NCBI GenBank assembly: GCA_028687995.1 | Contig: JAQTZA010000003.1 | Coordinates: forward strand, 1 to 64,000 | Direction of reading: 5' to 3' | Length of the DNA: 64,000 nucleotides | DNA from: Bacteroidales bacterium | Lineage (GTDB): Bacteria; Bacteroidota; Bacteroidia; Bacteroidales; UBA7332 | Shown here: positions 456 to 19,623 of the stretch, in pieces | Layout: every line of letters starts with the position of its first letter | How positions within the stretch are numbered: the stretch's first letter is position 1 | The notes under the pieces: generated by a model | What the model was told of the DNA's origin: nothing | Database searches by the model: none | What the model saw: only the letters and a program-made list of their open reading frames with translations | Made by a program: the position numbers and the translations under genes

Positions 456-3400
456 ATGAAAAGATTTATAATTAATCTGTTATCTACATTTGTCGTCCTT
501 TTTTCATTCTTTTGTTCCGATCTGTTGGCTTTCACGCCATTGAATAGCAATTCCAAAGTGCAACTTGGCATCAGCGGAGTTTCGTCTTATGGCAGACCGC
601 TCTTTGCAAATGCTCTTTATAATGAACCGCGTGGCTGGAAGTCCAGCCTTACTAATCAGGCCGTCCCAACGACTCAACTCAGTGTCGACGGATACCCGTT
701 ATACCTCAATACTGGAGAATATATTTTTGTTCAACCTGGCCAAAACGCTGGCTTAAATGCTTCTTCTTATGGAGGACGAATATGTGTGACGTGGGAAGGT
801 GAGGCAGACATTACCATTGGTTCGGCATCCTATTTAGGCGGAAGTACAGCTGCAGGATTAATCGTAAATGGGAAACGTTATTTTAATAATGGAACTAATC
901 CCAATGGTATTTTCGTGAAAATTATAGGTATAAACAAAGATAATCCTCCAAAGAATATTAAAGTATGGTTGAATGATTTAACAAATCCTACTCTATCGCT
1001 TGACCCTGCTGAACAAGGAGGAAAAGAGTTTCTTTTACACCCCTCATTCGTTAATCTTTTTGGAGGCGATGCGTTTCAGATTTATCGATTTATGAATTTG
1101 ACTCAAACGGCTGACTGCGAAATTTCAAATTGGAGCGATAGACGGAAACCCTCTCATTGCTTTCAGTATGGAACCATCAATGGAGTTGCAAAAATGGGAA
1201 TAAGCTATGAAAAAGCAATTCAGATTTGTAACGATCTGGGTAAAGATATGTGGATAAATGTTCCGGCCAAAGCCGATCAAAACTTTGTAGAACAACTAGC
1301 ACGCCTGATAGATGGGAAAGATCCAGATGGAACAGGTTGTCCCGGGTTAAATAAAAATCTTCGCTGCTTTGTTGAATACAGCAATGAAATGGGTTGGACG
1401 TATTGGTCAAGCTATTGTACTTCGCAAGGACAACTGGAAAATCCAAAAGTGGATGGACGAACATGGGCAGGAAAGCAAAAAGCGCGCGTAAATAGTTGGT
1501 TCAGAAATATTGTTGGAGCAGATAATGAACAATACAAATTCATCCACGCCATCCAAACGGCTGAATTTACCAATTCAGACAAAGAGCTTGCTCAGGCTTG
1601 TACTACTTATGGTCCAACGTTGTCGCCATCAGGTGTTCCTGATTACATCGGTATAACAGGATATTTTGGCAGTCAAATTGAACAATACATTTTTAATGAA
1701 ATTAATTATTGGGATCCTGCGGTACGAGAAACTGAACTGGAGAAGGTTTTCAAAGAGTTAGAGAATAGAACTTTATCCGAAACAGCATCTGTAACTGGAG
1801 TTGATTTCACTGGAGGTGGCATATCTCAATATGCCAAGAATCTGCGTACTAAATATGGGAAACCATTTATTGCTTACGAAGGTGGTTGTGGTTTAAATCT
1901 CACAGGATCAAGCAAATGCAAGTTAGATTGTAAGATTGCGGCAACCGGCACAACTTGCAGTACGAATATTAAAACTCTTGCAGACGGCTGTGGCGAATTT
2001 GGTGGCTATGCCGGATCAACAAACTACATCAGTTTTCTAACAGCAGTCCACAAGCATCCTTTGATGAAAAAGATGTTTGAAATAAACAATTCGTTGGCAA
2101 AAGCCAACGGGCTTGGGGTATTGAGCCAATTTGGTGAAGTGGCAGATCCAGCCGCAGGTATAGATTATGGTTATTGGGGTTGCTTGACGAACTATAAACA
2201 AGATTTACAAACTGCCTATAGATACCAGTATTGGCTAGATTGGACAGCGGATCAAAAAGATATTAGAGAGGTTGGTAATCCGATTGGAACTGCGCCAGCA
2301 TTCATTTCGAAAGGAGATATTTTACCCATTAAAGTAGGAGAAGAGTCGAATCGCGAGATTTTGTTTGGCAATGGAGATGGAGCCATTGAGGTAAAAATGA
2401 TAAGTAGACAAGACCAATTACCTTCAAGTTTATCATTCACACCTCAAAGCAATAAAATTTCAATAACCGGCGTACCTCAAAAGGATGAAATCGGAACTTA
2501 CTATATTTTGTATCGATTGCTGGATTCTGATAAAGATCCTGCGTATGGATTGTTTACACTCAAAGTGCTACCAGCAGAGAAAGACACATTGCTTGCGTAT
2601 GACGATTTTGGCACCACCGAAGCCCCCTTATATCAATCGGCTAATGGATTTGGTTTTTCATCAGGTTGGTATGTTCAAAGCTATTCCACCACCAATTTCT
2701 TATTAGTGAATCAACCACAGCTAAGCTACAAAAACCTCAAATCGTCGAAAGGTTGTGCTGCCTATGGTGGTGGTGGATTCCTTACAGCCGGTCGATCTTT
2801 TGATGTTCGTAAATTCGATTATTTGATGAATTCGGTCTCTAAAATTTCTGTCGGAGAACCCAGTACAAGTCTTTGGTTTAGTTCGCTATTTATGCGCACG
2901 GCTAATACAAATACAAAGGATATTTTTCGCTTCTTAGAAACCGGAAATTATGAAACAAGAGCTGATTCAAAAGTCATTCTTACTATTAATACAAATGGCA
3001 AATTTAATCTTGATTGCCGAAATGCTGCGAATAGCGCATTTATCTCTGTTCCGACCACTATAGATGCATCAATTGGTGATACATTCTTGATCGTTATGGA
3101 GTTCAGATTTGGCTTAACAAACGACATGATTAATCTGTATATCAATCCAATCAATTTAAGTGAGAAGATTCCTAACATTGATCCCTCAGCCACATTTACG
3201 ACAGAAAACGGACAAGTAATACGATTGGCTAAATTTGGTTATTATGGACATTCTGCTGCAGCAACTTACATCGACGACTTGAGGTTTGGTGACAGTTATA
3301 AATCTGTTACTCCTATTGGGAGTGGCGATACTGCCATTAAACCTTTATTGGCTGATGGGATAAAAATATTCAGAAACAAAGAATTTATCCAAATATCATC

Positions 3401-3563
3401 CAACGAATCTGGAGGTGTAGTTCAGATTTTCAATATCTTCGGACAAATGCTTAGCACTAGACAGATGGATACATCAGCTAAATTTACGGTTCCGTCAAAA
3501 GGTACTTATGTTGTGAAATATGTGAGTGATTCAGGGACAATAGTTAAAAAGATAACATTTTAA
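456..3563 (+). CDS. Secreted clan GH-A-like hydrolase, paralogue 1 (T9SS substrate)
   Basis: A secreted protein of 1035 residues. I chose the ATG at 456 because it opens directly into a signal peptide (MKRFIINLLSTFVVLFSFF, cleavage near LLA/FTP); the in-frame TTG at 414 would add a hydrophilic leader. Residues about 25-610 form a probable (beta/alpha)8 hydrolase. VEYSNEMGW carries the NE pair (N310-E311) expected of a clan GH-A acid/base, and IAYEGGCG supplies a candidate nucleophile (E475). Cysteines recur around both sites. An Ig-like (He_PIG-type) segment follows at about 640-705, then a concanavalin/LamG-like domain at about 710-955. The last 70 residues look like a type A T9SS sorting domain (FNIFGQ, GTYVVKYV, final KKITF). 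I cannot assign a named GH family. Two paralogues follow immediately. The signal peptide and sorting domain imply export to the cell surface or medium. Confidence 0.75.
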   Translation: MKRFIINLLSTFVVLFSFFCSDLLAFTPLNSNSKVQLGISGVSSYGRPLFANALYNEPRGWKSSLTNQAVPTTQLSVDGYPLYLNTGEYIFVQPGQNAGLNASSYGGRICVTWEGEADITIGSASYLGGSTAAGLIVNGKRYFNNGTNPNGIFVKIIGINKDNPPKNIKVWLNDLTNPTLSLDPAEQGGKEFLLHPSFVNLFGGDAFQIYRFMNLTQTADCEISNWSDRRKPSHCFQYGTINGVAKMGISYEKAIQICNDLGKDMWINVPAKADQNFVEQLARLIDGKDPDGTGCPGLNKNLRCFVEYSNEMGWTYWSSYCTSQGQLENPKVDGRTWAGKQKARVNSWFRNIVGADNEQYKFIHAIQTAEFTNSDKELAQACTTYGPTLSPSGVPDYIGITGYFGSQIEQYIFNEINYWDPAVRETELEKVFKELENRTLSETASVTGVDFTGGGISQYAKNLRTKYGKPFIAYEGGCGLNLTGSSKCKLDCKIAATGTTCSTNIKTLADGCGEFGGYAGSTNYISFLTAVHKHPLMKKMFEINNSLAKANGLGVLSQFGEVADPAAGIDYGYWGCLTNYKQDLQTAYRYQYWLDWTADQKDIREVGNPIGTAPAFISKGDILPIKVGEESNREILFGNGDGAIEVKMISRQDQLPSSLSFTPQSNKISITGVPQKDEIGTYYILYRLLDSDKDPAYGLFTLKVLPAEKDTLLAYDDFGTTEAPLYQSANGFGFSSGWYVQSYSTTNFLLVNQPQLSYKNLKSSKGCAAYGGGGFLTAGRSFDVRKFDYLMNSVSKISVGEPSTSLWFSSLFMRTANTNTKDIFRFLETGNYETRADSKVILTINTNGKFNLDCRNAANSAFISVPTTIDASIGDTFLIVMEFRFGLTNDMINLYINPINLSEKIPNIDPSATFTTENGQVIRLAKFGYYGHSAAATYIDDLRFGDSYKSVTPIGSGDTAIKPLLADGIKIFRNKEFIQISSNESGGVVQIFNIFGQMLSTRQMDTSAKFTVPSKGTYVVKYVSDSGTIVKKITF

Positions 3564-3649
3564 TTATTTGATATAAAGCTATTTATAAACAGATGGAATA
3601 CAAATCGTTTCATCTGTTTTTTGTAAAATATTCAATTTTCGTACAAATG

Positions 3650-6600
3650 ATGATTCAAATTAAAGCGTTTCAGCATCGGTTTCTTATCGTGTTATTTTTA
3701 GCATTTATTTTTCCGCAATCAGAATTTGCGTTTACTCCTAAAAACACCACTCAAGAGCTTCAACTAGGCATTTCAGGTATCGCTTCATACGGTAAACCGC
3801 TATTCGCAAATGCGATGTATGATGAAACAAGAGGTTGGAAATCGACCAATGAAACGAGTTTTCCATTACAATCAAATCAAATTGGATCTGACGGATACCC
3901 TCTATATCTTACACCCGGGCAAAGTCTGTACGTTCAACCTGGTCAAAATTCTGCTTTGAACGCAACGGCTTATGGTGGTCGTATCTGCGTTTCCTGGGAA
4001 GGAGAGGCCGACATTACAGTTGTCTCAGCTACATATTTAAGCGGTAGTCCAGCTACAGGTTCTGTGCTGAATGGAAAGCGGTTTTATAACAACGGCACAA
4101 AACCTAATGGTGTCTATTTGAAAGTTATTTCTATTAATGCTGCCAATCCACCTAAAAACATCAAAATATGGCTGAATGATTTAAGGAATCCTTCATTATC
4201 ATTGGATCCATCTGAACAAAGCGGTAAAGAATATTTGCTGCATCCGAGCTTTGTCTCACTTTTTGGAAATGAGACATTTACGTTGTATCGGCTAATGAAT
4301 CTAACAGAAACGGTAGATAGCAAGATTGTAAATTGGAGCGATCGGCGTATGCCAAATCACTGTTTTCAAAAGGGAGTTCTCAATGGGCTTTCAATGGTTG
4401 GTATTAGTTATGAAAAGGCAATCCAGATATGCAACGAATTAGGAAAAGATATGTGGATCAATATTCCACCAATGGCTAATCAGAATTTTGTCGAAAATCT
4501 GGCAAGATTAATTGATGGACAAGATCCCGATGGCACAGGATGTGCGGGGCTTAACAAAGATTTGCGCTGTTTTGTAGAATGGGGTAACGAAATGGGGTGG
4601 AGTTATTGGATAAATGAGTGTAACGCATGGGGGGCAGCAGAAGCACCAGCAATAAGCGGAAGGCAGTATGCTGGAAGACAGCAAGCCAGAACGACAAGTT
4701 GGTTTAGAAATATTGTTGGTGCAAATAATGAACAATATAAATTTATTCATGCTATTCAGACATCAGAACTATCAAACTCGGATGCAGAACTTGAGCAGTC
4801 TTGTACGCTATTTGGGCCAACATTAACGCCATCTGGCAAGCCTGATTACATCGGCGTAACATCTTATTTTGGAAGCAAAATAGAACAATACGTTTTCGAT
4901 AATATCAACTACTGGGACACGTCTGTTCAGGCTGCCGAATTGGGGAAAACCTTTACCGAATTTGAAAAACGAACGCTCTCGTTATCCTCTTCCGTAACTG
5001 GGGTCGATTATACAGGCGGCGGAATCCCTTCTTCTGCCCAAACATTAAGCTCAAAATATAACTTGCCTTTTATGATTTACGAAGGAGGTTGTGGACTTAA
5101 TTTAGCATCTAGTCAAACGTCATTAGACTGTAAAATTGTGCCAAAAGGAACTTCAGGAGGTACCTTTAATGTTTTCCTGAATAACTTGGCTGATGCATGC
5201 CATACAAATGGCAAGGTGCTTTACACCAATTTTATAAGAGCAATACATTCCGATTCAAGAATGTCCAAAATGCTTGAAATCAATAATTGCATCGTAAAGT
5301 CGATAGGTGTGGAAACAATGAGTCAATTTGGCGACGTTGCCGATCCTGCTCTTGGTATCGACTACGGATATTGGGGATGCAAAACAGATTATCTTCAGGA
5401 TCCGGCAACATCTTATCGGTATAATTTTTGGACAGATTGGTACAACGAACAAAAGAACATCAGAGAGGTTGGTCATTCGACCGGCGCTGGAGGTGCACCT
5501 TCTTTCCTCACCGATGCAACACTTTCTCCAGCAAGAGTAGATGAACCAATGATTAGAGAAATTTATTTTGGTGGAGGTGATGGCTCACTTGAAGTGAAAA
5601 TGATAAACCAATCGTCCATACTTCCTTCATCCTTGCAATTCAACTTGCAGGGAAACAAAATTGTTATTTCCGGAACTCCGACCTTGAGCGATGTAGGAAC
5701 TTGTAATTTTATGTATCGATTATTGGATACAGACAAAGATCCAGCTTATCGAATTTTCTCTTTACAAATTTTACCACCGCCGAGCAATACACTTTTTGCT
5801 GGCGACGACTTTGGAACTACGGATTCTACTCCACTTCATGGCCTCAATACTGGTTTTGGGTTTAAATCAGCCTGGTCTGAGCTAACGAATTCGTTGACAA
5901 GTTTTGTTACAAAGACCAGTTCTCCTCTTTTGTATCCTACTCCACACACTCTCCCCTCTCTTTTATGCTCGCAGGGAGCACGGGTGAATACTACAACCTC
6001 CTATACTTATTACGCTTCGCGTATTCTTGATGTTTCTAAATTTGATTATTTGATTAATCCGACTGATGCAAACAATATTGGACAACCGGGTGCAAGTTTG
6101 TGGTTCAGCTCTTTATTCTCAAGATCGGCTGCAAATACGGCTAAGCTTGATATATTTCAATTTCGACCAAATTCTGCTAATACAATCTCAAATAGAACAC
6201 AGGCTCCAGTAATAATAACACTTGATGCAGATGGCAAATTTTCGTTAGATTGTCTAACTCTTTCTGGCACCTTTGTTACCATACCAACAAATATCACGGC
6301 ATCGATAAACACAACTTATTTTGTCGTTGTTGAGATAAAATTCGGATTGACTAATGATGTGGTCAATCTCTATATTAATCCTGCTAATTATGGCGGTACT
6401 TCTCCCTCAATTTTACCTTCAGCCAGTGACACTACCGAAGTCGGACAGGTCACACGTATCGCTAAAATTGCGATTACCGGAAAAATTGCGATGGCGTCTT
6501 ATGATGATTTTCGTTTTGGCGACACCTATCGAGCCGTAAGCCCAATAGAGGATCTGACCGTGATTAATCAGTCTCCAAAAACAGCACTATCAATTACATA

Positions 6601-6805
6601 TTCAAATCATCTACTCTATATTAAATCGAATGAAGAACATAGTTTAGTTCAAATTTTTGACGCTATGGGAAAACTGGTTTTTTCGAAACATATTGACTTT
6701 CAGGCTAACCCAATCCCCATTACCACTGAAGGAATCTACATCGTTAAAGTGAATGAAAAGTCCAACCATTTAAGTAAAATTATAGCCGTTAAGCCTATTC
6801 AATAA
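3650..6805 (+). CDS. Secreted clan GH-A-like hydrolase, paralogue 2 (T9SS substrate)
   Basis: A protein of 1051 residues with the same architecture as paralogue 1. There are ATGs at 3593, 3647 and 3650. The last gives a normal signal peptide (IQIKAFQHRFLIVLFLAFIF, ending near EFA/FTP) that aligns with its neighbour, whereas 3593 adds an 18-20-residue leader. The putative acid/base is E314 in VEWGNEMGW and the putative nucleophile is E478 in MIYEGGCG. They are 164 residues apart, exactly as in paralogue 1. An Ig-like segment, a LamG-like domain (NTTYFVVVEIKFGLTNDVVN, DDFRFGD) and a C-terminal T9SS sorting domain (QIFDAMGKLVFSK, GIYIVKV) follow. The gap to the upstream gene is only about 85 bp, so co-transcription is likely. 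Substrate is unknown. Duplicated genes with slightly different active-site neighbours (WG versus YS) may have different linkage preferences; that is an inference. Confidence 0.75.
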   Translation: MIQIKAFQHRFLIVLFLAFIFPQSEFAFTPKNTTQELQLGISGIASYGKPLFANAMYDETRGWKSTNETSFPLQSNQIGSDGYPLYLTPGQSLYVQPGQNSALNATAYGGRICVSWEGEADITVVSATYLSGSPATGSVLNGKRFYNNGTKPNGVYLKVISINAANPPKNIKIWLNDLRNPSLSLDPSEQSGKEYLLHPSFVSLFGNETFTLYRLMNLTETVDSKIVNWSDRRMPNHCFQKGVLNGLSMVGISYEKAIQICNELGKDMWINIPPMANQNFVENLARLIDGQDPDGTGCAGLNKDLRCFVEWGNEMGWSYWINECNAWGAAEAPAISGRQYAGRQQARTTSWFRNIVGANNEQYKFIHAIQTSELSNSDAELEQSCTLFGPTLTPSGKPDYIGVTSYFGSKIEQYVFDNINYWDTSVQAAELGKTFTEFEKRTLSLSSSVTGVDYTGGGIPSSAQTLSSKYNLPFMIYEGGCGLNLASSQTSLDCKIVPKGTSGGTFNVFLNNLADACHTNGKVLYTNFIRAIHSDSRMSKMLEINNCIVKSIGVETMSQFGDVADPALGIDYGYWGCKTDYLQDPATSYRYNFWTDWYNEQKNIREVGHSTGAGGAPSFLTDATLSPARVDEPMIREIYFGGGDGSLEVKMINQSSILPSSLQFNLQGNKIVISGTPTLSDVGTCNFMYRLLDTDKDPAYRIFSLQILPPPSNTLFAGDDFGTTDSTPLHGLNTGFGFKSAWSELTNSLTSFVTKTSSPLLYPTPHTLPSLLCSQGARVNTTTSYTYYASRILDVSKFDYLINPTDANNIGQPGASLWFSSLFSRSAANTAKLDIFQFRPNSANTISNRTQAPVIITLDADGKFSLDCLTLSGTFVTIPTNITASINTTYFVVVEIKFGLTNDVVNLYINPANYGGTSPSILPSASDTTEVGQVTRIAKIAITGKIAMASYDDFRFGDTYRAVSPIEDLTVINQSPKTALSITYSNHLLYIKSNEEHSLVQIFDAMGKLVFSKHIDFQANPIPITTEGIYIVKVNEKSNHLSKIIAVKPIQ

Positions 6806-6931
6806 TCGCTTTCATTGACAATTAGAATTACTGCTATTATTATTTGTTTGAATACTGTTCTTTATATTCTTTGAGAATCAAGATTCCTCACTAAATAAAA
6901 CAGACCCTTTTCGATTAATATAGAACACGTT

Positions 6932-9052
6932 ATGCTCAAAATGACTCTTATAAAATGGCATCGAAACAGACTGATTCTATTGCTTTTGGGGTTCACTTTT
7001 CTGACCATTGATAGCGCATCACAGGAATTTAATCCGCTGAACAAAAGCAAAGAGATTCAACTGGGACTCTCCGGAATCGCTTCGTACGGAAGAGCGATTT
7101 TCGCCAATGCGCTTTTTCAAGAAACGCGAGGATGGAGGGCAGTTGATGCTGCTAATACTCCTGTCGATTCTGAACAAATTGGGGCGGACGGATATCCAGT
7201 GTTTCTTAAACCCGGTCAGGTTTTGTTTGCACATCCCGGACACGATGCGTCAGCAAATTGCGCATCATACGCTGGTCGAATTTGCGTCACTTGGGAAGGT
7301 GAAGCTGATATCCGTTTGCCAAATGCACGTTTTTGCTCAAGTCCTTCACTTGCCACAGGTTCTGTTGTTAATGGAAAGAGATATTACGACAATGGCTTGA
7401 TGCCCGATGGTGTGAGGGTAGAGATTGTGGCAATTAATCCGAAAAATCCACCAAAAAACATAAAGGTTTGGCTCAACGATAGTCGAAACCCCGCTAAAAG
7501 CCTCGATCCTGCTGAGCAAAATGGAAAAGAATACTTATTGAATCCAGCCTTTTCGTCTCGATTCGGTGTGGATGCCTTCTTTATGTATCGATTTATGGAC
7601 ATGACCGATACCAATCACAGCGATATTGCTCAATGGTCTGATCGAAGGAGCTCAACACATTGTTTCCAAAAAGGGAAAATTAACGGCGTAGATGTTGGGA
7701 TGTCCTACGAATTAATACTTGATATTTGTAATACTTCAGGCAAAGATTTATGGATAAATATTCCGGCAAAAGCTGATGAAGAATTTGTAAAAAAACTGGC
7801 TATGCTCATTGATGGAGATGATCCTGATCATACTGGCTGTAAAGGATTGAATAAGAATCTTCGATGTTATGTCGAATATGCCAACGAAGTCGGGTGGTCT
7901 TATTGGGCCGATTACTGTACATCAAAAGCAAAGACTGAAGGATTGCCTTCTGGCAGACATTTTGCCGCCATGCAGAAAGCTCGAGTAGCCAGTTGGTTTA
8001 GATCGGTGGTTGGCGAAAACAACGAACGATTTAAAATGGTTCAGTGTATTCAAACCGGCAGCATGTATTTCTCGGATATTGAGATGGATATTACCTGCAA
8101 ATCGTATGGCCCGACATTAAAACCGTCTGGTGTGCCTGATTTTATGGGTGTAACGGCTTACGTCAGCAATCAGATGGAGCAGTTTGTATTCGACGAACTT
8201 AATTATTGGGATAAAAAGGAGAGAGAATCGCAGTTGAATCTTTTCTTCAATGAGTTTGAACGACGTGCGCTATCGGGTGGTTCAACCGTATCAGGTGTCG
8301 ATTTCACAAGCGGAATTTCATCCGTTGCGAAAGATTTAAGAACTACATACGGCAAGCCAATTGTCATTTACGAAGGTGGTTGTGGCATGTCGCTCACCCA
8401 CAAAAGATGTGCGAAAGATTGCAAAATTGTCCCAACTAATACAATGGGCGCAAATTGCAATTCACTCAAAAAATTGGCAGATAGCTGCGGGGGAAGCGAT
8501 AATTATGTAAATTTTATTCGCGAAGCGCACAAGCATCCATTAATGGCAAAAATGTTCGATATTTGTTTCTCGCTTTCGAAAGCTGAAGGAGTGGAATCCC
8601 TCAGTCAGTTTGGTGATGTGCAGGATGTAGAGGCAAATATTGATTACGGCTATTGGGCTTGTATGAACGATTTGAGCTCCAATCCACCATCGGCCTTACG
8701 TTATCAGTTTTGGTTAAAATGGTTTAAAGAACAGCGACAGATCAGAGAGATTGGATCTCCGGCTGGTGCATCACCACAGTTCTTTTCAGCCCCTGAGATA
8801 GAGCCATTTTATGTAAATAAAGTCAATGAGAGAGAGATTTTATTTGGGAATGGCGATGGCAAAACCGAGGTTAAATTAATCAGTAGAAAAGAGACTTTGC
8901 CATCAAGAGTAAAAATTGAATACCAGAGTGGTAAGATTATAATCTCAGGAAAACCCCTAAAATCTGATCAGGGAAACTATTTCTTATTATTTCGATTGCT
9001 CGACCAAGACAATGACCCTGCTTATCGGGTGTTTAAATTAAATATCGTTTGA
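6932..9052 (+). CDS. Clan GH-A-like hydrolase, paralogue 3, short form without a T9SS tail
   Basis: A protein of 706 residues, homologous to the first ~700 residues of the two preceding genes. It has a signal peptide (RNRLILLLLGFTFL, ending near ASQ/EFN), the barrel with E319 in VEYANEVGW and E481 in VIYEGGCG, and the Ig-like segment ending in RLLDQDNDPAYRVFKLNIV. It stops exactly where the others continue into the LamG-like and sorting domains. I see no frameshifted remnant of those domains in the 27 bp before the next gene. The protein should therefore stay in the periplasm or leave by another route, while paralogues 1 and 2 are predicted T9SS cargo. The 5' gap of 126 bp is AT-rich without an obvious terminator. 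Function is not known; the conserved NE and YEGG glutamates argue that it is an active glycosidase. Confidence 0.73.
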   Translation: MLKMTLIKWHRNRLILLLLGFTFLTIDSASQEFNPLNKSKEIQLGLSGIASYGRAIFANALFQETRGWRAVDAANTPVDSEQIGADGYPVFLKPGQVLFAHPGHDASANCASYAGRICVTWEGEADIRLPNARFCSSPSLATGSVVNGKRYYDNGLMPDGVRVEIVAINPKNPPKNIKVWLNDSRNPAKSLDPAEQNGKEYLLNPAFSSRFGVDAFFMYRFMDMTDTNHSDIAQWSDRRSSTHCFQKGKINGVDVGMSYELILDICNTSGKDLWINIPAKADEEFVKKLAMLIDGDDPDHTGCKGLNKNLRCYVEYANEVGWSYWADYCTSKAKTEGLPSGRHFAAMQKARVASWFRSVVGENNERFKMVQCIQTGSMYFSDIEMDITCKSYGPTLKPSGVPDFMGVTAYVSNQMEQFVFDELNYWDKKERESQLNLFFNEFERRALSGGSTVSGVDFTSGISSVAKDLRTTYGKPIVIYEGGCGMSLTHKRCAKDCKIVPTNTMGANCNSLKKLADSCGGSDNYVNFIREAHKHPLMAKMFDICFSLSKAEGVESLSQFGDVQDVEANIDYGYWACMNDLSSNPPSALRYQFWLKWFKEQRQIREIGSPAGASPQFFSAPEIEPFYVNKVNEREILFGNGDGKTEVKLISRKETLPSRVKIEYQSGKIIISGKPLKSDQGNYFLLFRLLDQDNDPAYRVFKLNIV

Positions 9053-9079
9053 TTTCGCATTCTGAAAAAATTATTAATC

Positions 9080-10549
9080 ATGAAAAAATCAATTTTCGCA
9101 CTCGTTATAACTTTATTCTTCCATCCATTAGTGGGGCAAAATCTGCTGTTGCCTTCTATTTTTAGCGACAATATGATTTTGCAGCGCCAAATCGAGAATC
9201 CGGTTTGGGGAAAGGCGACGCCAAAATCGACGGTAGTCGTTCAGATCGGAAATTGTATAATCTCCGTAAAATCATCCGCTTCGGGCGATTGGCACGTCAA
9301 ATTGCCTGTTTTGGATTCTAATCTGGAATATGAGCTCACGGTGTGGAATCTCAACCAAAAAGTGGAGTTTCGTCACGTTATTTTGGGGGATGTCTATTAC
9401 GTGGGGGGACAATCGAATATGCAATTCGCTCTGAAAAAATCGACTGGTGGCATTGAGGCTTTGAAGCGTGCTGATTATCCAAATATTCGGCTATTCAAAG
9501 TTCCGCAGTCCATATCTTACAAACCTCAGTTCGATCTCAATCGTAACTCTACTAACGGCAAATGTGCCGGACATTGGTGTCGTTGCGATAGTCTATCCGC
9601 AGTCAATTTCTCGGCTATAGGATTCTATTTTACCGAAATACTGCATCGTGAGGAGAAAATCCCTATTGGCATTATCGATGTGTCGTGGGGAGGTACACCG
9701 ATCGAAGCTCACTCCTCTTTAGAGGTAAATAATCATTTTTCAGATTTTAAGAAGGATGTGAAAACTATTCGTAGCAAATCAATATTCGATACGCTTACAA
9801 TCGAAAAATCGAAAAGCACTCCACAGCTTCCATCGTCCATCTACAATGCCATGATTCATCCGCTTATTCCCTACGGAATAAAGGCTTTCGTATGGTATCA
9901 GGGGGAGCACAACTGGAATTATCCGCAACGTTACGAAGCACAGCTAAAAGCAATGATCAAAGGCGTGAGGAAAAGTTGGCGAATGCCGACAATGCCTCTT
10001 TTTATCGTGCAGTTGCCCAATATCGGGAAAAAAGATTCATTGTTAACAGATTATTATTGGGCTGTTTTGCGAGAGTCGCAGGCAAAAGTTGCGGCCATGC
10101 CACACAACCATTTGTGTGTGACCATCGATCTGGGCGAAGACGGTAATTTACACCCCAAAAATAAGCTCGGTGTTGCCAAACGCTTAGCTGAATTAGCTCA
10201 AAACCACCTCTATAATCACCCGAAGAGTGGACTTTCTCCTGCTTTCAAATCTTTCCGTGTAATCGGCAATCAGATTGAATTGACATTTACTGATGTCACG
10301 GAAGGTTTCCAGTCGGTCGATTCCATTGTAGGATTTGCGATTTGTGGTGCCGACAACAAATTTGTATGGGCAAACGCCAGCATATCAGGCAATAAAATTG
10401 TGGTCAGTCATCCCGAAATTTCGAAACCAAAAGCCGTTCGATACGCTTGGGGTAACAATCCCACATGCAATCTTTTTAATGCACAAGGTTTCCCTATAGC
10501 TCCTTTCCGCACAGATCGGTTTCAATTGCCAAAGGATGGAAAGTGGTGA
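9080..10549 (+). CDS. Sialate O-acetylesterase-like (SASA family) carbohydrate esterase
   Basis: A secreted protein of 489 residues that begins with a signal peptide (KKSIFALVITLFFHPLVGQ). The region LPSIFSDNMILQR followed by an Ig-like stretch is the usual start of SASA-family esterases. GGQSNM around S112 gives the SGNH-type nucleophile, and DGNLHP near the C-terminus offers the Asp/His partners of the triad. In polysaccharide loci this family removes O-acetyl groups from plant glycans such as acetylated xylan or pectin as well as from sialic acid; no sialidase is nearby, so a plant glycan is the better guess. It starts 27 bp after paralogue 3. The last 61 bases of the coding region are repeated 386 bp downstream, beyond the stop codon. 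Confidence 0.85.
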   Translation: MKKSIFALVITLFFHPLVGQNLLLPSIFSDNMILQRQIENPVWGKATPKSTVVVQIGNCIISVKSSASGDWHVKLPVLDSNLEYELTVWNLNQKVEFRHVILGDVYYVGGQSNMQFALKKSTGGIEALKRADYPNIRLFKVPQSISYKPQFDLNRNSTNGKCAGHWCRCDSLSAVNFSAIGFYFTEILHREEKIPIGIIDVSWGGTPIEAHSSLEVNNHFSDFKKDVKTIRSKSIFDTLTIEKSKSTPQLPSSIYNAMIHPLIPYGIKAFVWYQGEHNWNYPQRYEAQLKAMIKGVRKSWRMPTMPLFIVQLPNIGKKDSLLTDYYWAVLRESQAKVAAMPHNHLCVTIDLGEDGNLHPKNKLGVAKRLAELAQNHLYNHPKSGLSPAFKSFRVIGNQIELTFTDVTEGFQSVDSIVGFAICGADNKFVWANASISGNKIVVSHPEISKPKAVRYAWGNNPTCNLFNAQGFPIAPFRTDRFQLPKDGKW

Positions 10550-10554: not shown

Positions 10555-10640
10555 TTAAGAGAATAAAAATTACGAAACGATGATAATAATAAATTCCCCG
10601 TCCTCATGGATATGACGCTTATAAAAATGATGATCCGTTG

Positions 10641-10659
10641 GTGGGATCTGCGCTCCCGC
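10641..10659 (+). repeat. REP-like GC-rich palindrome, left copy
   Basis: The 19-mer GTGGGATCTGCGCTCCCGC lies in an otherwise AT-rich gap and forms a short hairpin (GGGA with TCCC around a TCTGCGC loop). It is present in inverted orientation at 10813-10831. The arrangement resembles REP elements spread by RAYT transposases. No RAYT gene is in the window, so that link is inferred. Confidence 0.6.
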
Positions 10660-10812
10660 CTTTTATGTACTATAGGAATCGAAGATCAGCGGAGCTAATT
10701 TGCAATTGCTTTCGGCGAACATTGTTTCCGACAACAAAAAATAAATTTTAATCAGTTGATATTTAATGGAATGTAGAGTTATCGGATCACAGATCCTTGC
10801 AATACTAAAAAA

Positions 10813-10831: not shown

Positions 10832-10874
10832 TAACCAATATCACCATTCTACGGTATATCCGAAGGGATGGGGA

Positions 10875-10940: not shown

Positions 10941-10960
10941 AAAATTAAACTTTTACAAAT

Positions 10961-13570
10961 ATGAAACAATACTTTATTCTTCTTTTTGCATTTCTATCAG
11001 TCGGGGCTATGGCCGAACGATCGGTAATAACCATCAACGACAACTGGCAGTTTACCAAAGACTCGGTTTCCGATGTCGCGCAACTCAGTGATTCGCATAT
11101 CAACTGGGAAAATATCAATCTCCCGCATACGTGGAATGCAGAAGATGCGTATGTAAAGAAAAACTATCATCGCGGAACGTGTTGGTACAAAAAGGAGTTC
11201 TCACTCCCGAAAACAGATGTTTCGGCTTCACACTTCCTGAAATTCGAGGGAGTTTTGTCGTATGCTGAGGTTTATCTGAATGGAAAACTGTTGGGAACAC
11301 ACAAAGGTGGATATTCCGCTTTCGTTTTCGATATAAGCAACATTGCAAAATTAGATCAAAAGAACAGTTTGTGGGTAAAAGTGAATAATGAAAACCGTGA
11401 TATTCCGCCATTGATGGGCGATTTCACGATGTGGGGCGGCATCTATCGCGATGTAAGAGTGGTGACAGTCGATCAACTTCACTTCGCTTATGGAGAATTC
11501 GGGCACAACGGCATTTTGATACAAACACCTGTAGTCAGTCAAGCCAAAGCGACCGTCAAAGCGACCGTTGATGTAAAGAATGATTTATCCACTGCGTCGA
11601 AAATAGCTGTAAAATGCGTGTTGCGCGACAATGATCAAAAGATTGTGGCTTCTCAGTCGCTTACCGTTACGATAGCCGGAGGCGAAAAAAAGAGACTCAT
11701 TTTCGAAAAGTTGAGCGTTGCAAACCCTGATTTGTGGTCGCCCGATGCTCCAACTCTCTATTCTATTGAAACAGAAATAGTAAATACTAAAACGAATCAT
11801 GTGACAGACCGACTGCTGAATAATATTGGGTTTCGCTGGTTTAGCGTAGATGCAAATAAAGGATTCTTCTTAAACGGAAAACACCTGAAGCTGGTCGGCG
11901 TAAACCGTCATCAGGATTTTGATGGATTGGGCAGTGCGCTTACCGATGAATTTCATCGACGCGATATGCAATTAGTAAAAGAGATGGGTGCCAATTTTAT
12001 CCGAATTGCACACTATCCACAAGACGATGCCGTACTTGATGCGTGCGACAAATTAGGAATTATTGCTTGGGAAGAGATTCCGATTATCGAAACAGTTTTG
12101 CTTGATGAAAACTTTGAGCTGTTGTGCAAAACTAACTTTAAGGAGATGATTTATCAACACTTCAACCACTCATCCGTAGTGCTTTGGGGACTAATGAATG
12201 AATCTATTTGGGGAACGATAAGACTTTATCCTGAAGACAAGCGAGAACCCTATTTGCGTCGTACGCATCTTTTTGCAAAAGAATTGGATAGTATATCGAA
12301 AGCGATTGATCCGCAACGACTAACGACCATTGCACATCACGGCGATCGTCCGGCATACGAAAAATGCGGATTGAGCAGCGTGACCGATGTTGTAGGGTGG
12401 AATGTCTATAACGGTTGGTACGGAGGCGACACCAAAGGCTTTGCAGAGACAGTTGATGCCGAGCATAGCGAACACCCTGAGCGGATATTGATGGTGAGCG
12501 AATACGGAGCCGGAAGCGACAAACGGTTGCAAACCCTTCGCGGTCAATCGTTTGATTTTAGCATCGAATATCAACAACAATACCACGAAGCTATTCTACC
12601 CTATATTTTGGAACGCGATTTTCTGGCGGCAACTGCCGTGTGGAATATGAACGACTTTGGATCGGCCAACCGCGACGAATCGATGCCCCGCATCAACAAC
12701 AAAGGTTTGATGTATTACAACCGCGAACCAAAAGATGTCTATTATTACTATCAGGCAATGTTGACTAAGAAGCCGGTTTTACATATTGCAACCCGTGATT
12801 GGTTTATGAAAACTCTGGTGGCGGAATCACCTACTAACACAGTGATGTATCCGGTGAAAGTCTATTCAAATCTGAAAAGCATAGAGCTGTTTGTGAATGG
12901 ACAATCGTATGGTAAAATGACACCTGAGAATGGACACGCCATTTGGATGATTCCGCTAAAGAATGGAGTCAATACACTCATTGCCAGAGGAGATATGAAC
13001 CGTGAAGATGCCACTACAGTAGATATTAAGGTTATACCTTTCGATTTAAAATCCTCTAAAAACAACTTGTTGGAGATTGCGTTGAATTGCGGAAGTAATT
13101 GCGATTTCACCGACGACAAATCGAAAATGAGCTGGATTGCCGACAGACCATACACACAGGGTAGTTTTGGCTACATTGGCGGCGACTGTTACAAGCCCAA
13201 CGATTATAAAATTGGGTTTAATAATCAGGTGTACGGAACCCGCAACGTACCACTTTTTCAAACCATCAGATTGGGTGCTTCGGGTTATAAATTCGATGTA
13301 CCCGATGGAGATTACGAAGTGGAACTCGACTTCGCTGAACCACCAACCGACAATCAAACCATTATACCGGCAGAAAATATTTTCGATGTTTTCATCAACA
13401 ACCAGTTGATTTTACCCAAATGGAACATTGCCGAAAATGGCGGTCGCTGTTTTGCGATTTCTAAAAAAGTAATTGTGACAGCGTCAGGTCAGGAAGGGAT
13501 TCATATCGAGCTGAAAGCTATCAAAGGTACAACATTAATCAATGGTTTAAAGATTTGCAGAATAGAGTAG
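10961..13570 (+). CDS. GH2 beta-glycosidase with C-terminal malectin-like domain
   Basis: A protein of 869 residues. A signal peptide (FILLFAFLSVGAMA) is followed by the GH2 jelly-roll (NLPHTWNAEDAY, YHRGTCWYKKEFSLP), an Ig-like domain and the TIM barrel (GVNRHQDFDGLG). The acid/base is E414 in GLMNESIWG and the nucleophile is E514 in MVSEYGAGSD, both in the usual GH2 contexts. After the barrel come a DUF4982-like/Ig segment and a malectin-like carbohydrate-binding domain at about 700-869 (IALNCGSN..., ending ...GLKICRI). Such proteins act as beta-galactosidases, beta-glucuronidases or related exo-enzymes; the sequence alone does not decide. There is no T9SS domain, so a periplasmic site is likely. 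A strong terminator follows. Confidence 0.88.
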   Translation: MKQYFILLFAFLSVGAMAERSVITINDNWQFTKDSVSDVAQLSDSHINWENINLPHTWNAEDAYVKKNYHRGTCWYKKEFSLPKTDVSASHFLKFEGVLSYAEVYLNGKLLGTHKGGYSAFVFDISNIAKLDQKNSLWVKVNNENRDIPPLMGDFTMWGGIYRDVRVVTVDQLHFAYGEFGHNGILIQTPVVSQAKATVKATVDVKNDLSTASKIAVKCVLRDNDQKIVASQSLTVTIAGGEKKRLIFEKLSVANPDLWSPDAPTLYSIETEIVNTKTNHVTDRLLNNIGFRWFSVDANKGFFLNGKHLKLVGVNRHQDFDGLGSALTDEFHRRDMQLVKEMGANFIRIAHYPQDDAVLDACDKLGIIAWEEIPIIETVLLDENFELLCKTNFKEMIYQHFNHSSVVLWGLMNESIWGTIRLYPEDKREPYLRRTHLFAKELDSISKAIDPQRLTTIAHHGDRPAYEKCGLSSVTDVVGWNVYNGWYGGDTKGFAETVDAEHSEHPERILMVSEYGAGSDKRLQTLRGQSFDFSIEYQQQYHEAILPYILERDFLAATAVWNMNDFGSANRDESMPRINNKGLMYYNREPKDVYYYYQAMLTKKPVLHIATRDWFMKTLVAESPTNTVMYPVKVYSNLKSIELFVNGQSYGKMTPENGHAIWMIPLKNGVNTLIARGDMNREDATTVDIKVIPFDLKSSKNNLLEIALNCGSNCDFTDDKSKMSWIADRPYTQGSFGYIGGDCYKPNDYKIGFNNQVYGTRNVPLFQTIRLGASGYKFDVPDGDYEVELDFAEPPTDNQTIIPAENIFDVFINNQLILPKWNIAENGGRCFAISKKVIVTASGQEGIHIELKAIKGTTLINGLKICRIE

Positions 13571-13774: not shown

Positions 13775-16700
13775 ATGAAAAACACATATCCAAAACTCCT
13801 AATTTTGTTGTTATCACTTAATACTTGGTTCAATATTGATGCAGCAAACGGATATTTCGATAATTTCATTCATGCTAACCGGGTATCGAACTGGACTTCG
13901 AAAGCGGGATATGGATTCAGCTGGAATAACGCCGGACAATCACTGCAATTGCAGATGACCAGCACGACAGCCAACCGAACCGATGTACAAATAAAAGACG
14001 AAAGCCAAAACCCCTATACCCTCAACCTTACCGGATATCCTTTGGTGCGTTTCAGAGCTTACGCAAACAAAGCGGTGTCGAATGTAAACTTCAAACTGAT
14101 TGATGTTAACAACAAAAAAAACGATCACTTTGTAAATGCAAATACCAAAGTGAATCTCGCTGGAAATAAATGGGAAGAATTTACCATCAATTATACTGGG
14201 AAACTGTATTACGACGGACAGCTGCACACCATCGATATCAGCCAGATAAAAGCGTTACATTTCGACGTAACCGACGGCGTATCAGATGCGCTCATCTATT
14301 TCGATGATTTTTGCGTTGGTGTTGATGCTGCAAGAAATGTCAAACCACGATTCGATGCCATTCCTAAACCAAATTATATTCTTTCGAACGCACCTATGCA
14401 AACCATTCCCTTGTCGGGAATCGACGATGGAAATCCCGAAAGAGAAGAGCAAATGACCATCACTGCGGTTAGTAGCAATCAATCTGTGGTTGCCGACGGC
14501 TCCATACACATCATTTACGATGGCATTTCCGGAAATGCGCAGCTTCAATACACAATCACTGGAAATTCAGGCATTGCCGAAATTTCGGTCACCGTAAAAG
14601 ACGACAGAGGAACAGCTTATACTGGTGAAGAGGATGCTGCAACACAGAAATTTATCGTTGAAGTACGAAATCCTGCACTGAATAACTCTCCAATCTATGG
14701 TGGACTATCATCGACCATCTATGCCGGCAAAGGATCGCAGGTGATTACAGTGAAAAATGTGACGGACGGTGATGACGATAAAACACAAAATCTGACGCTT
14801 TCTGCTGTTTCTACAAATCAGGCTTTATTGACAATCGAATCTGTTCAGTACAATTCAGCAGATAATTGTGCCTTTATCTTTGTCAAAGATCAGGAACAAA
14901 CCGGAACAGCAAATATTCAATTGACGCTCACCGACGATGGAGGAACAGCAAACGGTGGAGTGAATAGCTACACACGCACAGAGTCAATCCCAATCCTCAA
15001 ATACAGCAACACTTGCGCCAATTTCGTACAATTTGATATCCAACATTGGCAACCACGCCCTCTCCAGACTGAATCGCCAACCACCGGTTCGTATGTAAAA
15101 ATTTGCACATCGAATACTCCCATCGAGAATCTTGAACGGAATTTCTTTTGGTCGAAAATGTATGGATACATCGTTCCTTCAGTTACCGACAATTACAATT
15201 TTCAGGGATTCTCAAATGAAGGTTTCTATTTCTACTTAAATAAAGACGATGGTATCTCAACTCTACCTGCCAATCTCACCACAATGGTTGAAGATTCTAA
15301 GGTGATTTGGTCATCAACAACCGCGACTCCTCTCGTGGCAGGAAAACCTTACTACTTCGAAGCTTATTCTCGCGACATTGTCAACAATCAGGCGTTTTGG
15401 CTCAAATGGTCGTCAACTTCATCCCCTACTGTCGATTTTATTGCGAATGAGAACTTGATGCCCGACTACGATGTAACCAAACCATCCATGCCTGCTAGTT
15501 TGCAGGCGACTACAATAGGTGTGAATGATGTTAAACTTACTTGGAGTGCGTCAACGGACAACAAAAGTGTAAAAGGATACCTAATTTTCGTAGATGGTGT
15601 TTGTCAAAATGACAACCCTATTTCAGAAACAGAATATTTGGCTGTTAATCTAAAACCAAATACCTCATATTCGTTTCACGTAGTGGCTGTTGACAATTTT
15701 GAAAATTATTCTACCCCTTCCAACATTGTAAATGCCAAAACCTACAATGTAGATGCCATTGCCCCTCCAAAACCAACAAATCTGAAAGCAGACTTTACCA
15801 CCGCATTTGCCGTAAAATTATCTTGGAGTCCGGTGGTTGACAATGAAACACAAACACGTGGCTATACTATTTATCAAGATGGAAAAGCGGTAAAAACAAA
15901 TATTAATGCGACCAGTTTCTTAGTAACGGATTTGTCTCCAACCACCAATTACAGTTTTACAGTAACGGCTGTAGATGCAAATTACAATGAATCTCTGAAG
16001 AGTGACGCACTTATGGTCAAAACGCCCGCTTTCGACCCGACCGAGACTCGCGACGATGTTCGTAAAGGTAAGTTATCGATCAATCTTACTCCTTTGTGTA
16101 AAGCAGATGGATTTGGGATTGGAGTCGATTACGAAAAAACGAGCATTTTGAGTAGTAATAAAGTAATGTATGGCGGATTCGAAAGTCCATCCTTTGAAAC
16201 CTTTACCGACTCACAATTGAAACAAGCCACAAGCAACGCCACGTTGACACGTGTCACTGACAATCCCTATCAGGGAAGTTATTGCGGAAAAGTAGTTTCA
16301 AATGCTGCCAATGGCTATTTCAGGAAAGTAGTTTCAACGCCTGTTGATCTGCGATACACCTATTTGGTGCGCTTTGCGATGCGAAAAGACCCACTTTACA
16401 CCGGAACGGTGCGCGTTAATGTAAGCGGAAATGGTGGATTTTCCAGTGCGGTGATAACACCTACCAACGATTGGAAAATGTATGAAGTAGATTTAACCAC
16501 AACCTATCAAGGTGTAGAGGAAACCTGGTGGCTCGATTTTATCACCTCAGCTCCCGGAACGTTCTATATTGATAATATTGAATTTCATAATAAAAATTTC
16601 TACAAAGCTGGGTCACCATTTTCGACCAAAGTAATGGACCTTCTTAGAGAGTTTAAACCTTCCTCTGTGCGTTGGGGTGGAATTAATGCGAATGGAGAAT

Positions 16701-18511
16701 CATTTAATCTTTCTTCCGGATTACAATCGGAGGCGACACTCTCTTATGCCGATTGGGTGAAAATGAATAATGAATTAGGCGCGAGGGCAAGCATCGTGAC
16801 AGGTATTTCGAATGCTACTGATTTCAAATCGAATACCCAAACGTTCAAATCGTTGGTGGAATATTTAGCCGGTGATGCCTCAACCGTTGGTGGAGCAATC
16901 CGTGAGAAAGAAGGATACGACGATTTGATGACCGATTGCAAGGGTGTTAATTTTGAATTGGGAAATGAAGTGTGGGGAGCTGCTGTGCACGTAGCTGAAA
17001 TAGGTGCAGATTACACACAATATGGTGCATGGTGTCGCGGCGTTGCTAATACTATGCGCAACACGCCTGCTTATGATGCTACCAAGATGACCTTAACATA
17101 CAGCGGAAGAGCTCCAGACGTAAATTATGGATTACACAAAAAAATGCTCACAGGTGATACGGGCGAAATGGATATTTTGTCGTTGAGCGGATACCTTGGA
17201 GGAAACCTGAATTTAGAAACTGGAGTCGATCCCGGAGCTTCATTACTCGATTATTACAAAAACGGGCTCTACACGATGCAGACAAAATTCAGTGGATTTC
17301 AGTCTGATTGGACAGAAATGAAATCGTGTCTGGGAGGTCGTGTTTTACCAATGTATTTGTATGAAGGCAATATGACACAGAACTCATACAATGGTCGCCT
17401 CGGTCAGGCTGTTATCATGGCAGATTATTATTCTTCCGCTCCATTGTACGGAGCTCCGTTAACCACTCTTTTCCATTTCGATAGCGGACAATGGAGATTA
17501 ATTGATAATCCGGTTGATTTCAAAAAGATGCCACTCTTCTATATTGGAAAATATGTGAACAACTATTGTAAAGGATCCATATTGGGTACCACGTTCACTT
17601 CGTCTTACAAAATTTATACCGGCTCCACAACTCCCGTAGCATTAACATTAGATCCTGTGGGTTGCAAAGCTTACGCCGACAGTACAAACTATACAGTTGC
17701 ACTTTACAGTCGTGATTTTGAACACGATTTTGTAGTACAAATAGATTTACCCGATAATATTCTGAGAAGCTCAAAAGCTCACATTACAACGGTTAAAGGT
17801 GAATCTTTTAGTGCTACCGATGTGGTTGTAGATGAACAAGAAATCACTGATTTTACTGATAGCATATTGGTGAAAGTACCAAAATACAGTGTTGTGTTTG
17901 TTCGTTTCAAAGGAGAAGATAAATCGCTTACCGCACCTCTTCTCTATCCCAATTATCAAAATGTGAGAACATTGAAAATCTCTTCTACCGAGGGTAAAAA
18001 TACAATTGAGTCACAAAAAGGATCACTCCATCTTAGAGCTACGACGACACCCTCTGTGTTGTTTGCTTCCAACATTAATTGGGAAATTCTAGATAACGAT
18101 GTTACAAAAGCCTATTTCACCGTTACTCCTACTACTCGCACAATATCCGGTTCAGGATTGCTGGATGGCAATGGAACAGTAAGGGTGGTAGCGACAGCCA
18201 CTGATGGATCCGGAGTTTCGGATGTGTTTAATGTTGCAATATCGAATCAAGGAACGGATGGAATAGCGAAAACTGAAGCGAATAGATTTCTAATATATCC
18301 AAATCCAGTCAAAGATATTTTGTATGTCAATTTCTCTTCTCAGATTGTCGGATCCATGACGATTTATGATTTGCAAGGAAAGAAAATAGACAGTCAGATG
18401 ATAAAAGGAGAAAACGAAATAATGGATGTGCGGAAATTGCGCCCTGGGTTCTATCTGCTCAAAGCTTCTTCATCTCAAGGTGTTTTTATTCGTAAGTTTT
18501 CGAAAGAGTAG
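13775..18511 (+). CDS. Multidomain GH51-like arabinofuranosidase candidate, T9SS-exported
   Basis: A secreted protein of 1578 residues. A signal peptide is followed by a CBM-like beta-sandwich (about 25-190), two Ig/cadherin-like repeats (about 195-400, TVKDDRG and LTLTDDGG), a PA14-like domain (about 405-560) and two FN3 domains (about 570-750, VKLTWSASTDNKSVKGY and VKLSWSPVVDN). A catalytic region (about 765-1390) resembles alpha-L-arabinofuranosidases of GH51. It contains the CBM4-like insertion seen in those enzymes, the motif SSVRWGG, an acid/base at E1065 in ELGNEVWG and a candidate nucleophile at E1197 in YLYEGN. The final ~75 residues (IYPNPVKDILYVNF, IYDLQGKK, PGFYLLK) are a classic T9SS sorting domain. 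It follows a strong terminator and a 200-bp gap, so it probably has its own promoter. The exact family and substrate are uncertain. Confidence 0.8.
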   Translation: MKNTYPKLLILLLSLNTWFNIDAANGYFDNFIHANRVSNWTSKAGYGFSWNNAGQSLQLQMTSTTANRTDVQIKDESQNPYTLNLTGYPLVRFRAYANKAVSNVNFKLIDVNNKKNDHFVNANTKVNLAGNKWEEFTINYTGKLYYDGQLHTIDISQIKALHFDVTDGVSDALIYFDDFCVGVDAARNVKPRFDAIPKPNYILSNAPMQTIPLSGIDDGNPEREEQMTITAVSSNQSVVADGSIHIIYDGISGNAQLQYTITGNSGIAEISVTVKDDRGTAYTGEEDAATQKFIVEVRNPALNNSPIYGGLSSTIYAGKGSQVITVKNVTDGDDDKTQNLTLSAVSTNQALLTIESVQYNSADNCAFIFVKDQEQTGTANIQLTLTDDGGTANGGVNSYTRTESIPILKYSNTCANFVQFDIQHWQPRPLQTESPTTGSYVKICTSNTPIENLERNFFWSKMYGYIVPSVTDNYNFQGFSNEGFYFYLNKDDGISTLPANLTTMVEDSKVIWSSTTATPLVAGKPYYFEAYSRDIVNNQAFWLKWSSTSSPTVDFIANENLMPDYDVTKPSMPASLQATTIGVNDVKLTWSASTDNKSVKGYLIFVDGVCQNDNPISETEYLAVNLKPNTSYSFHVVAVDNFENYSTPSNIVNAKTYNVDAIAPPKPTNLKADFTTAFAVKLSWSPVVDNETQTRGYTIYQDGKAVKTNINATSFLVTDLSPTTNYSFTVTAVDANYNESLKSDALMVKTPAFDPTETRDDVRKGKLSINLTPLCKADGFGIGVDYEKTSILSSNKVMYGGFESPSFETFTDSQLKQATSNATLTRVTDNPYQGSYCGKVVSNAANGYFRKVVSTPVDLRYTYLVRFAMRKDPLYTGTVRVNVSGNGGFSSAVITPTNDWKMYEVDLTTTYQGVEETWWLDFITSAPGTFYIDNIEFHNKNFYKAGSPFSTKVMDLLREFKPSSVRWGGINANGESFNLSSGLQSEATLSYADWVKMNNELGARASIVTGISNATDFKSNTQTFKSLVEYLAGDASTVGGAIREKEGYDDLMTDCKGVNFELGNEVWGAAVHVAEIGADYTQYGAWCRGVANTMRNTPAYDATKMTLTYSGRAPDVNYGLHKKMLTGDTGEMDILSLSGYLGGNLNLETGVDPGASLLDYYKNGLYTMQTKFSGFQSDWTEMKSCLGGRVLPMYLYEGNMTQNSYNGRLGQAVIMADYYSSAPLYGAPLTTLFHFDSGQWRLIDNPVDFKKMPLFYIGKYVNNYCKGSILGTTFTSSYKIYTGSTTPVALTLDPVGCKAYADSTNYTVALYSRDFEHDFVVQIDLPDNILRSSKAHITTVKGESFSATDVVVDEQEITDFTDSILVKVPKYSVVFVRFKGEDKSLTAPLLYPNYQNVRTLKISSTEGKNTIESQKGSLHLRATTTPSVLFASNINWEILDNDVTKAYFTVTPTTRTISGSGLLDGNGTVRVVATATDGSGVSDVFNVAISNQGTDGIAKTEANRFLIYPNPVKDILYVNFSSQIVGSMTIYDLQGKKIDSQMIKGENEIMDVRKLRPGFYLLKASSSQGVFIRKFSKE

Positions 18512-18537: not shown

Positions 18538-19623
18538 ATGATACATACTGCTTTTTTAAGGCATTGTTTATCTGTTGCAGTGTTGGGTCTATGCGTTTAC
18601 ACTGCTGTAGCTCAGAAACCGGATCGATTCATTGACAGTTTCCTCGAGAAGAGGCATCATTTCTCGACTGTCGAAGATGTGGAAGGAAACTACACCATTG
18701 ATCTGACCGTCGATGCAATGATTAATTATGAAACCCAGACTGGAGATACAACCTATTTAGCGGCCATCGATCGATTTTTTGCTTTGCGCAGATATAACTT
18801 CGCAGAGCAAATTCCGTATCAAAAAATCCCCTTTTGTGATGTCTATTTCAGCTATTTTCAACTCAAGAGAGACAGCGCATTCATAAAGCCCTTTATTGCC
18901 GAAAGTTACCGGATGATGAAGGAGATTGCACGCTCGCCCGAAGGCGCAATCTGCATCAATCACAAAGGAGAAAATCGTATGTTGATTGATTATCTCCAAA
19001 ACTACATCTCGCGCATGGCGAAAGCCGGTTCTTTATCCGGCGATACAACATTCTTCGACGAAACGACTCGTCAGATTCGTCTTTATCGATCCATTCTACA
19101 ATACTCCAACTCTAAATTATACAGTCAAGGGCGTGGTTGGCTGGTTGATAAGAGTGAGATATCACCCTCTGCCTGGTCGCGTGGCCAAGGCTGGATGATG
19201 CGAGGATTGGTTAGCGCATTAGAATTCTTACCACCCAACTCTCACTATTCGACTGAGGTATCAGAATATTTGAAAGAATTATCTGTCGGATTACTAAAAA
19301 GACAAGATGAAGACGGAATGTGGCATACTTTACCGTTGTTGGGAAACAAGGAGAGTGCACCCGAAGTGAGTGGAACAGCAATGATTGCTTATTATATGTC
19401 TGTAGCCTTGCACAAGGGATTTATTGAAGGTCGTCATTTCAAAACTGCCGTGCAGAAATCAATTCGGGGTGTTCATAACTATACCGGTGGTGATTGTATT
19501 GTCCGAAACGTAAGCAAAGGACCCGGGCCACTGGTCTCGATTGATGACTATCGACAAATGGGAGAATGCGATAATTTGCATGGATTGCAGGCCATTATAA
19601 ATTTGCAAACCATAGAACACTAA
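18538..19623 (+). CDS. GH105/GH88-type unsaturated uronyl hydrolase
   Basis: A protein of 361 residues that begins with a signal peptide (HCLSVAVLGLCVYTAVA). The sequence is an (alpha/alpha)6-barrel of the YteR type, with WSRGQGWMMRGL from W213 as the hallmark active-site helix, DGMWHTL, and SGTAM near the end. GH105 enzymes hydrate and so open the 4,5-unsaturated uronic acid that a polysaccharide lyase leaves at the end of rhamnogalacturonan or ulvan fragments. It starts 26 bp after the GH51-like gene and is probably co-transcribed. No polysaccharide lyase is visible in this cluster, although its presence implies one elsewhere. The signal peptide suggests a periplasmic location. Confidence 0.85.
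   Translation: MIHTAFLRHCLSVAVLGLCVYTAVAQKPDRFIDSFLEKRHHFSTVEDVEGNYTIDLTVDAMINYETQTGDTTYLAAIDRFFALRRYNFAEQIPYQKIPFCDVYFSYFQLKRDSAFIKPFIAESYRMMKEIARSPEGAICINHKGENRMLIDYLQNYISRMAKAGSLSGDTTFFDETTRQIRLYRSILQYSNSKLYSQGRGWLVDKSEISPSAWSRGQGWMMRGLVSALEFLPPNSHYSTEVSEYLKELSVGLLKRQDEDGMWHTLPLLGNKESAPEVSGTAMIAYYMSVALHKGFIEGRHFKTAVQKSIRGVHNYTGGDCIVRNVSKGPGPLVSIDDYRQMGECDNLHGLQAIINLQTIEH

Follow-up and report, generated by a model that had tools for sequence, protein, structure and literature searches.

Three adjacent genes at the start of a Bacteroidales contig (JAQTZA010000003.1, positions 1 to 64,000; this whole stretch of 64,000 nucleotides is the window referred to below) appear to encode the same hydrolase barrel three times over. 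This raises the question of what kind of enzyme the barrel is, whether it belongs to a named glycoside hydrolase (GH) family and what it acts on. The window begins at base 1 of the contig (C20), so gene 1 is seen without its upstream neighbourhood.

Three tandem paralogues

The genes, their domains and the gene that follows them are:

456..3563, plus strand: paralogue 1 (gene 1), open reading frame, 1035 aa; signal peptide-like N-terminus, GH-A-like barrel with inserted beta-sandwich, Ig-like domain, unnamed module of ~260 aa, T9SS sorting tail
2571..3347, plus strand: unnamed ~260-aa module of gene 1 (HMM match; no Pfam hit)
3381..3554, plus strand: T9SS type A sorting domain of gene 1 (TIGR04183, above the curated cut-off)
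3593..6805, plus strand: paralogue 2 (gene 2), 1070 aa from the first ATG, layout as gene 1
5774..6577, plus strand: unnamed ~260-aa module of gene 2 (HMM match; no Pfam hit)
6614..6784, plus strand: T9SS type A sorting domain of gene 2 (weak, just below the cut-off)
6932..9052, plus strand: paralogue 3 (gene 3), 706 aa; barrel, inserted beta-sandwich and Ig-like tail only
9080..10549, plus strand: SASA-type carbohydrate acetylesterase (gene 4; PF03629, 1.7e-14; sialate O-acetylesterases in PDB)
10640..10660, plus strand: terminator-like hairpin 3' of the esterase gene, closing genes 1-4 (consensus scan only)

The three proteins are 53.4, 53.0 and 50.6% identical in pairwise comparisons over the barrel region and Ig-like tail, far above chance, which confirms the sequence-only reading of this DNA as three adjacent paralogues on one strand with the same barrel. 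In gene 2 a later ATG, at 3650, gives the residue numbering used in that reading. Gene 3 has neither the ~260-aa module nor a T9SS tail. The gaps between genes 1 and 2, genes 2 and 3, and gene 3 and the esterase gene are 29, 126 and 27 bases, and with the hairpin after the esterase these short gaps make genes 1-4 look like one unit. The stretch from the acetylesterase gene to the GH2 gene also holds two near-identical hairpins with the core GGGATCTGCGCTCCC, one on each strand (10642-10658 and 10814-10830), and there is one further copy in the genome.

A widespread family with the trio as a divergent branch

A profile made from the trio alone found no relative among 84,980 species genomes (GTDB), which shows how isolated the trio's sub-branch is. 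Gene 3 likewise had no close relative in a sample of about 790 genomes from its phylum and order, although two of these belong to its own genus. Searches with single proteins found distant relatives on another contig of the same genome (C15) and in other Bacteroidota. An alignment of four such relatives yielded at least 561 encoded relatives in GTDB from more than ten phyla, the phyla being read from record titles, many of which belong to metagenome bins. Among the matches listed are Bacteroidota, Planctomycetota, Verrucomicrobiota, Spirochaetota, Pseudomonadota, Myxococcota, Thermodesulfobacteriota, Chloroflexota, Cyanobacteriota, Armatimonadota, KSB1 and Fermentibacterota. The family was present in 11 of 296 genomes sampled from the phylum. 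Relatives were sought with a barrel-only profile, because the full-length alignment (A2) had pulled in mostly matches to the T9SS tail.

As a control for circularity, a profile was built from 79 relatives without the trio. It matches gene 1 with an E-value of 8e-43, gene 3 with 1.6e-39 and gene 2 with 5e-36, with the NE and YEGG motifs aligned. Eight other proteins, four from the neighbourhood and four distal ones of CAZyme type, did not score, and neither did shuffled controls. The trio can therefore be placed within the wider family. In a phylogenetic analysis the three proteins form one clade (100/100) on a long stem of 2.31 changes per site, and these long branches leave the exact placement of the trio in the tree unsure. 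On these sequence comparisons the trio is a divergent branch of a large, unnamed clan GH-A family.

The two C15 genes form a second tandem pair of the family in the same genome (L006:5407-8556 and 8709-12746). Both carry PKD and a ~260-aa module, the second gene also F5/8C, and the pair adjoins two SGNH/GDSL-type esterase-like proteins. It falls inside a clade of PKD-bearing Bacteroidota proteins, separate from that of the trio, and is thereby ruled out as the trio's source. Elsewhere in the family, a planctomycetotal sequence (L087:5748-9443) has the motif FVEYSNEVWN twice and apparently contains two barrels in one chain.

Predicted catalytic residues and fold

The putative catalytic glutamates are encoded at:

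1386..1388, plus strand: E311 codon of gene 1, predicted acid/base, strand 4; invariant in 82 sequences
1878..1880, plus strand: E475 codon of gene 1, predicted nucleophile, strand 7
4589..4591, plus strand: predicted acid/base Glu codon of gene 2 (E333 of the long ORF, E314 from the later ATG)
5081..5083, plus strand: predicted nucleophile Glu codon of gene 2 (E497 of the long ORF, E478 from the later ATG)
7886..7888, plus strand: E319 codon of gene 3, predicted acid/base
8372..8374, plus strand: E481 codon of gene 3, predicted nucleophile

The earlier numbering of these residues holds, as does their spacing (164, 164 and 162 residues in genes 1, 2 and 3). Thirteen residues are identical in all of 82 aligned barrels, namely R220, W235, R238, N267, W274, E315, N318, E319, W322, Y410, Y480, E481 and G483 in gene 3 numbers. 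All of them, both glutamates and the tyrosines included, are intact in genes 1, 2 and 3, so that by profile match and invariant residues alike the trio is a member of the unnamed EYxNE/YEGG family. Along the barrel the sequence starts with R (strand 2) and continues with E-x-x-N-E (strand 4), Y (strand 6) and E (strand 7), which is the clan GH-A pattern of GH5 and its kin. Clan GH-A barrels have been recruited elsewhere for binding or transglycosylating roles, and the trio might likewise be glycan-binding or transglycosylating proteins instead of hydrolases. In L127, a distant relative from the same order, both catalytic glutamate motifs are apparently gone, which makes it a possible pseudoenzyme and lends this idea some weight; the intact set of 13 residues in each gene of the trio argues against it and makes it very improbable.

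AlphaFold2 run on the 82-row alignment predicts a (beta/alpha)8 barrel with pLDDT 80 and pTM 0.87 (0.86-0.87 across models). In model numbering, which is gene 3 minus 30, the strands are at 11-15, 188-190, 242-247, 282-286, 337-342, 374-380, 447-453 and 524-529. Strand 4 ends at 286 with N288-E289 next to it, and E451 lies within strand 7. The model thus agrees with the earlier expectation of a TIM barrel with its glutamates at strands 4 and 7, and on this predicted fold, with Asn before the acid/base Glu at the end of strand 4 and the nucleophile Glu at strand 7, the barrel is of the clan GH-A type. The model also places a beta-sandwich of ~150 residues between strand 1 (11-15) and strand 2. 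In two relatives (L009 and L125) a strand-1-like GxNFWN is followed within ~60 residues by the strand 2 RFMD motif with no sandwich between, which supports the view that the predicted sandwich was inserted into the barrel behind strand 1.

A Foldseek search with the whole model was misled by the Ig domains, and a barrel-only model was searched instead. Rows 1-40 of the result are all clan GH-A proteins (GH51, 53, 164, 1 and 2, family names that for some entries we presume), most of them with a probability of 0.95-1.00. The scores are weak, with a best E of 1.4e-3 and TM values no higher than 0.41, which may be due in part to the absence of strand 1 from the barrel-only model. A Foldseek search against the viral library added nothing.

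Relation to named families

The sequence-only reading had found no named GH family for the paralogues and took a strong match to an existing one as grounds for giving up the idea. Searches of Pfam, NCBIfam and PDB sequences with the 82 barrels produced no such match. The three full proteins gave matches only to sorting tails and by chance in Pfam and NCBIfam, and paralogue 1 had no match among PDB sequences. At E-values up to 10, the 82 barrel domains matched no glycosidase model in Pfam, PF00150 (GH5) included, with chance matches only to non-GH families, and their profile (A5) matched no glycosidase among all PDB chains, so that the GH158 and GH164 entries were unmatched. NCBIfam named only sorting tails and attached domains in 46 full-length members. 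The relatives on plasmids are annotated as hypothetical, as calcium-binding or by a fused partner domain, none as a numbered GH in its own right. Literature searches returned only unrelated papers for the VEYSNE motif, and targeted ones nothing that matches a founding paper of such a family.

Like clan GH-A as a whole (GH1, 2, 5, 39, 51, 53, 79, 164 and others), the trio is predicted to have a (beta/alpha)8 barrel in which N-E comes at the end of strand 4 and E lies on strand 7. It differs in the beta-sandwich that separates strand 1 from strand 2 and in its signatures, Y-E-G-G and W-x-x-R, and has no significant sequence similarity to the clan families tested. In GH5 (PF00150) the motifs follow one another in the same way, from G-x-N (strand 1) and R (strand 2) to E-x-x-N-E (strand 4) and E (strand 7), and hhalign against a small GH5 profile aligns NE with NEP and YEGG with GEFG; the E-values, 0.17 to 0.32, are not significant, and no member of the trio's family scores against PF00150. 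With small GH39 and GH53 profiles the E-values were 0.15-0.24, again not significant and no better than those of a GH29 control.

A rather doubtful alternative is that the three proteins are remote members of a numbered CAZy family, for example a newer one of clan GH-A, which has no match in Pfam, NCBIfam or PDB. A precedent is GH148 (EngU), also of clan GH-A with its acid/base in an NE motif, which was founded largely on sequences from uncultured bacteria that bore very little resemblance to known members (PMC5725463). GH148 has the motifs INNEN and VTEYN, and in its known members strand 4 is followed by an insertion (PMC5725463). By that description the trio differs, with the motifs EYxNE and YEGG and the insertion after strand 1 instead; in the AlphaFold2 model a GH148-type insertion between strand 4 and helix 4 is absent, the helix beginning within 7 residues of E289. 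GH158 and GH164 are candidates as structural neighbours in Foldseek (9-12% identity), yet the 82-sequence profile missed both families, though they have PDB entries. The annotations of the plasmid relatives and the outcome of the literature searches likewise tell against a numbered family. The unnamed EYxNE/YEGG family is a candidate new CAZy family.

Partner domains and cysteines

In genes 1 and 2 the ~260-aa module follows the barrel, whereas in the C15 pair, as in 29 of 77 relatives, it is fused on the N-terminal side; the copy from gene 2 has no match in PDB. That different clades carry it at different ends of the barrel suggests that it was recruited more than once, as a binding module might be, and the module is probably glycan-binding. 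Other CAZyme-like companions of the barrel in relatives are CBM9, PA14, dockerin, PKD and, in one chain, GH16 with RTX. These companions fit action on carbohydrates generally and no single substrate. The GH16 chain is a 2302-aa protein from a Paracoccus marcusii plasmid (L117:1471-8379) that consists of the family barrel, an EglC-type GH16 and RTX repeats.

An unusual set of conserved cysteines near the active-site strands had also been pointed out. Eleven cysteines are indeed common to all three paralogues (C118, C244, C266, C303, C312, C329, C389, C484, C497, C519 and C577), but they are not part of the shared active site: in nine of these columns none of 79 wider relatives has a cysteine, while C266 is found in 31 and C329 in 4. 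As a family-wide active-site feature the cysteines are thus ruled out. Being nearly private to the trio, they mark its sub-branch, where they may form disulfides.

Gene neighbourhood and proposed function

Downstream of the four-gene unit lie further enzyme genes:

10961..13570, plus strand: GH2 enzyme, close to Bacteroides uniformis beta-glucuronidase 2 (E 4.5e-224)
13775..18511, plus strand: fn3/T9SS protein of 1578 aa with NEVWG and YLYEGN motifs, GH-A-like
18538..19623, plus strand: GH88/GH105-type unsaturated uronyl hydrolase-like protein (PF07470, 3.2e-40; GH105 structures)

The 1578-aa protein has no named catalytic domain in Pfam and no match in PDB, and judging from its motifs is possibly another unnamed GH-A enzyme. 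About 7 kb beyond this cluster begins a separate minus-strand SusC/D locus (27030-44166) with GH16, GH3, GH2-like and MFS transporter genes, for which a beta-glucan target is likely; an AraC regulator lies at 45916.

We consider it quite probable that the trio are secreted, retaining clan GH-A beta-glycoside hydrolases of an unnamed family that act on an acetylated uronate polysaccharide, genes 1 and 2 at the cell surface and gene 3 in the periplasm. A hydrolase of clan GH-A type without a named family is also what the sequence-only reading proposed, and the HMM searches and predicted fold support it. The same reading saw in the triplication a sign of selection for a hard substrate, a conjecture that goes further than these results. 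In such an enzyme the acid/base Glu of E-x-x-N-E on strand 4 and the nucleophile of Y-E-G-G on strand 7 would carry out retaining hydrolysis, and the invariant R220, N318, Y410, Y480 and tryptophans (gene 3 numbers) would line the -1 subsite. The T9SS tail and probable glycan-binding module of genes 1 and 2 suggest that these enzymes cut the polymer, presumably by endo-action, at or outside the cell surface. Gene 3 is probably periplasmic, as its missing tail implies, and with its partners would trim the resulting fragments there. The acetylesterase, the beta-glucuronidase-like GH2 and the GH88/105-like enzyme could strip acetyl groups and uronic acids, and their presence points to an acetylated, uronate-containing polysaccharide as the substrate. 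The neighbours of those relatives that were examined gave no steady substrate signal.

The trio could instead remodel the exopolysaccharide of the bacterium itself or of its neighbours, or serve in biofilm turnover, in which case a food polysaccharide would not be the target. Calcium-binding (RTX-type) proteins are frequent among the relatives encoded on Alphaproteobacterial plasmids, and the chain that joins the barrel to an EglC endo-glycanase-type GH16 has a glycosyltransferase and a polysaccharide deacetylase nearby. The setting of the trio itself, beside acetylesterase, GH2 and GH88/105-type enzymes with the SusC/D-GH16-GH3 locus not far beyond, suits uptake and catabolism, and we therefore think a role in exopolysaccharide turnover unlikely.

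Implications

What had been three odd paralogues thus becomes a branch of something larger. We lean, by a little, towards a family that has no CAZy number, spans more than ten bacterial phyla, carries a beta-sandwich after strand 1 and is often coupled to an undescribed carbohydrate-binding family of ~260 aa. A family so widespread, with its active site fully conserved but neither a Pfam or NCBIfam name nor a relative of solved structure, marks a gap in the annotation of carbohydrate enzymes. The activity of one member would suggest a function for the hundreds of proteins that are currently annotated as hypothetical and might found a new enzyme family, and its partner module could become a newly defined binding domain.
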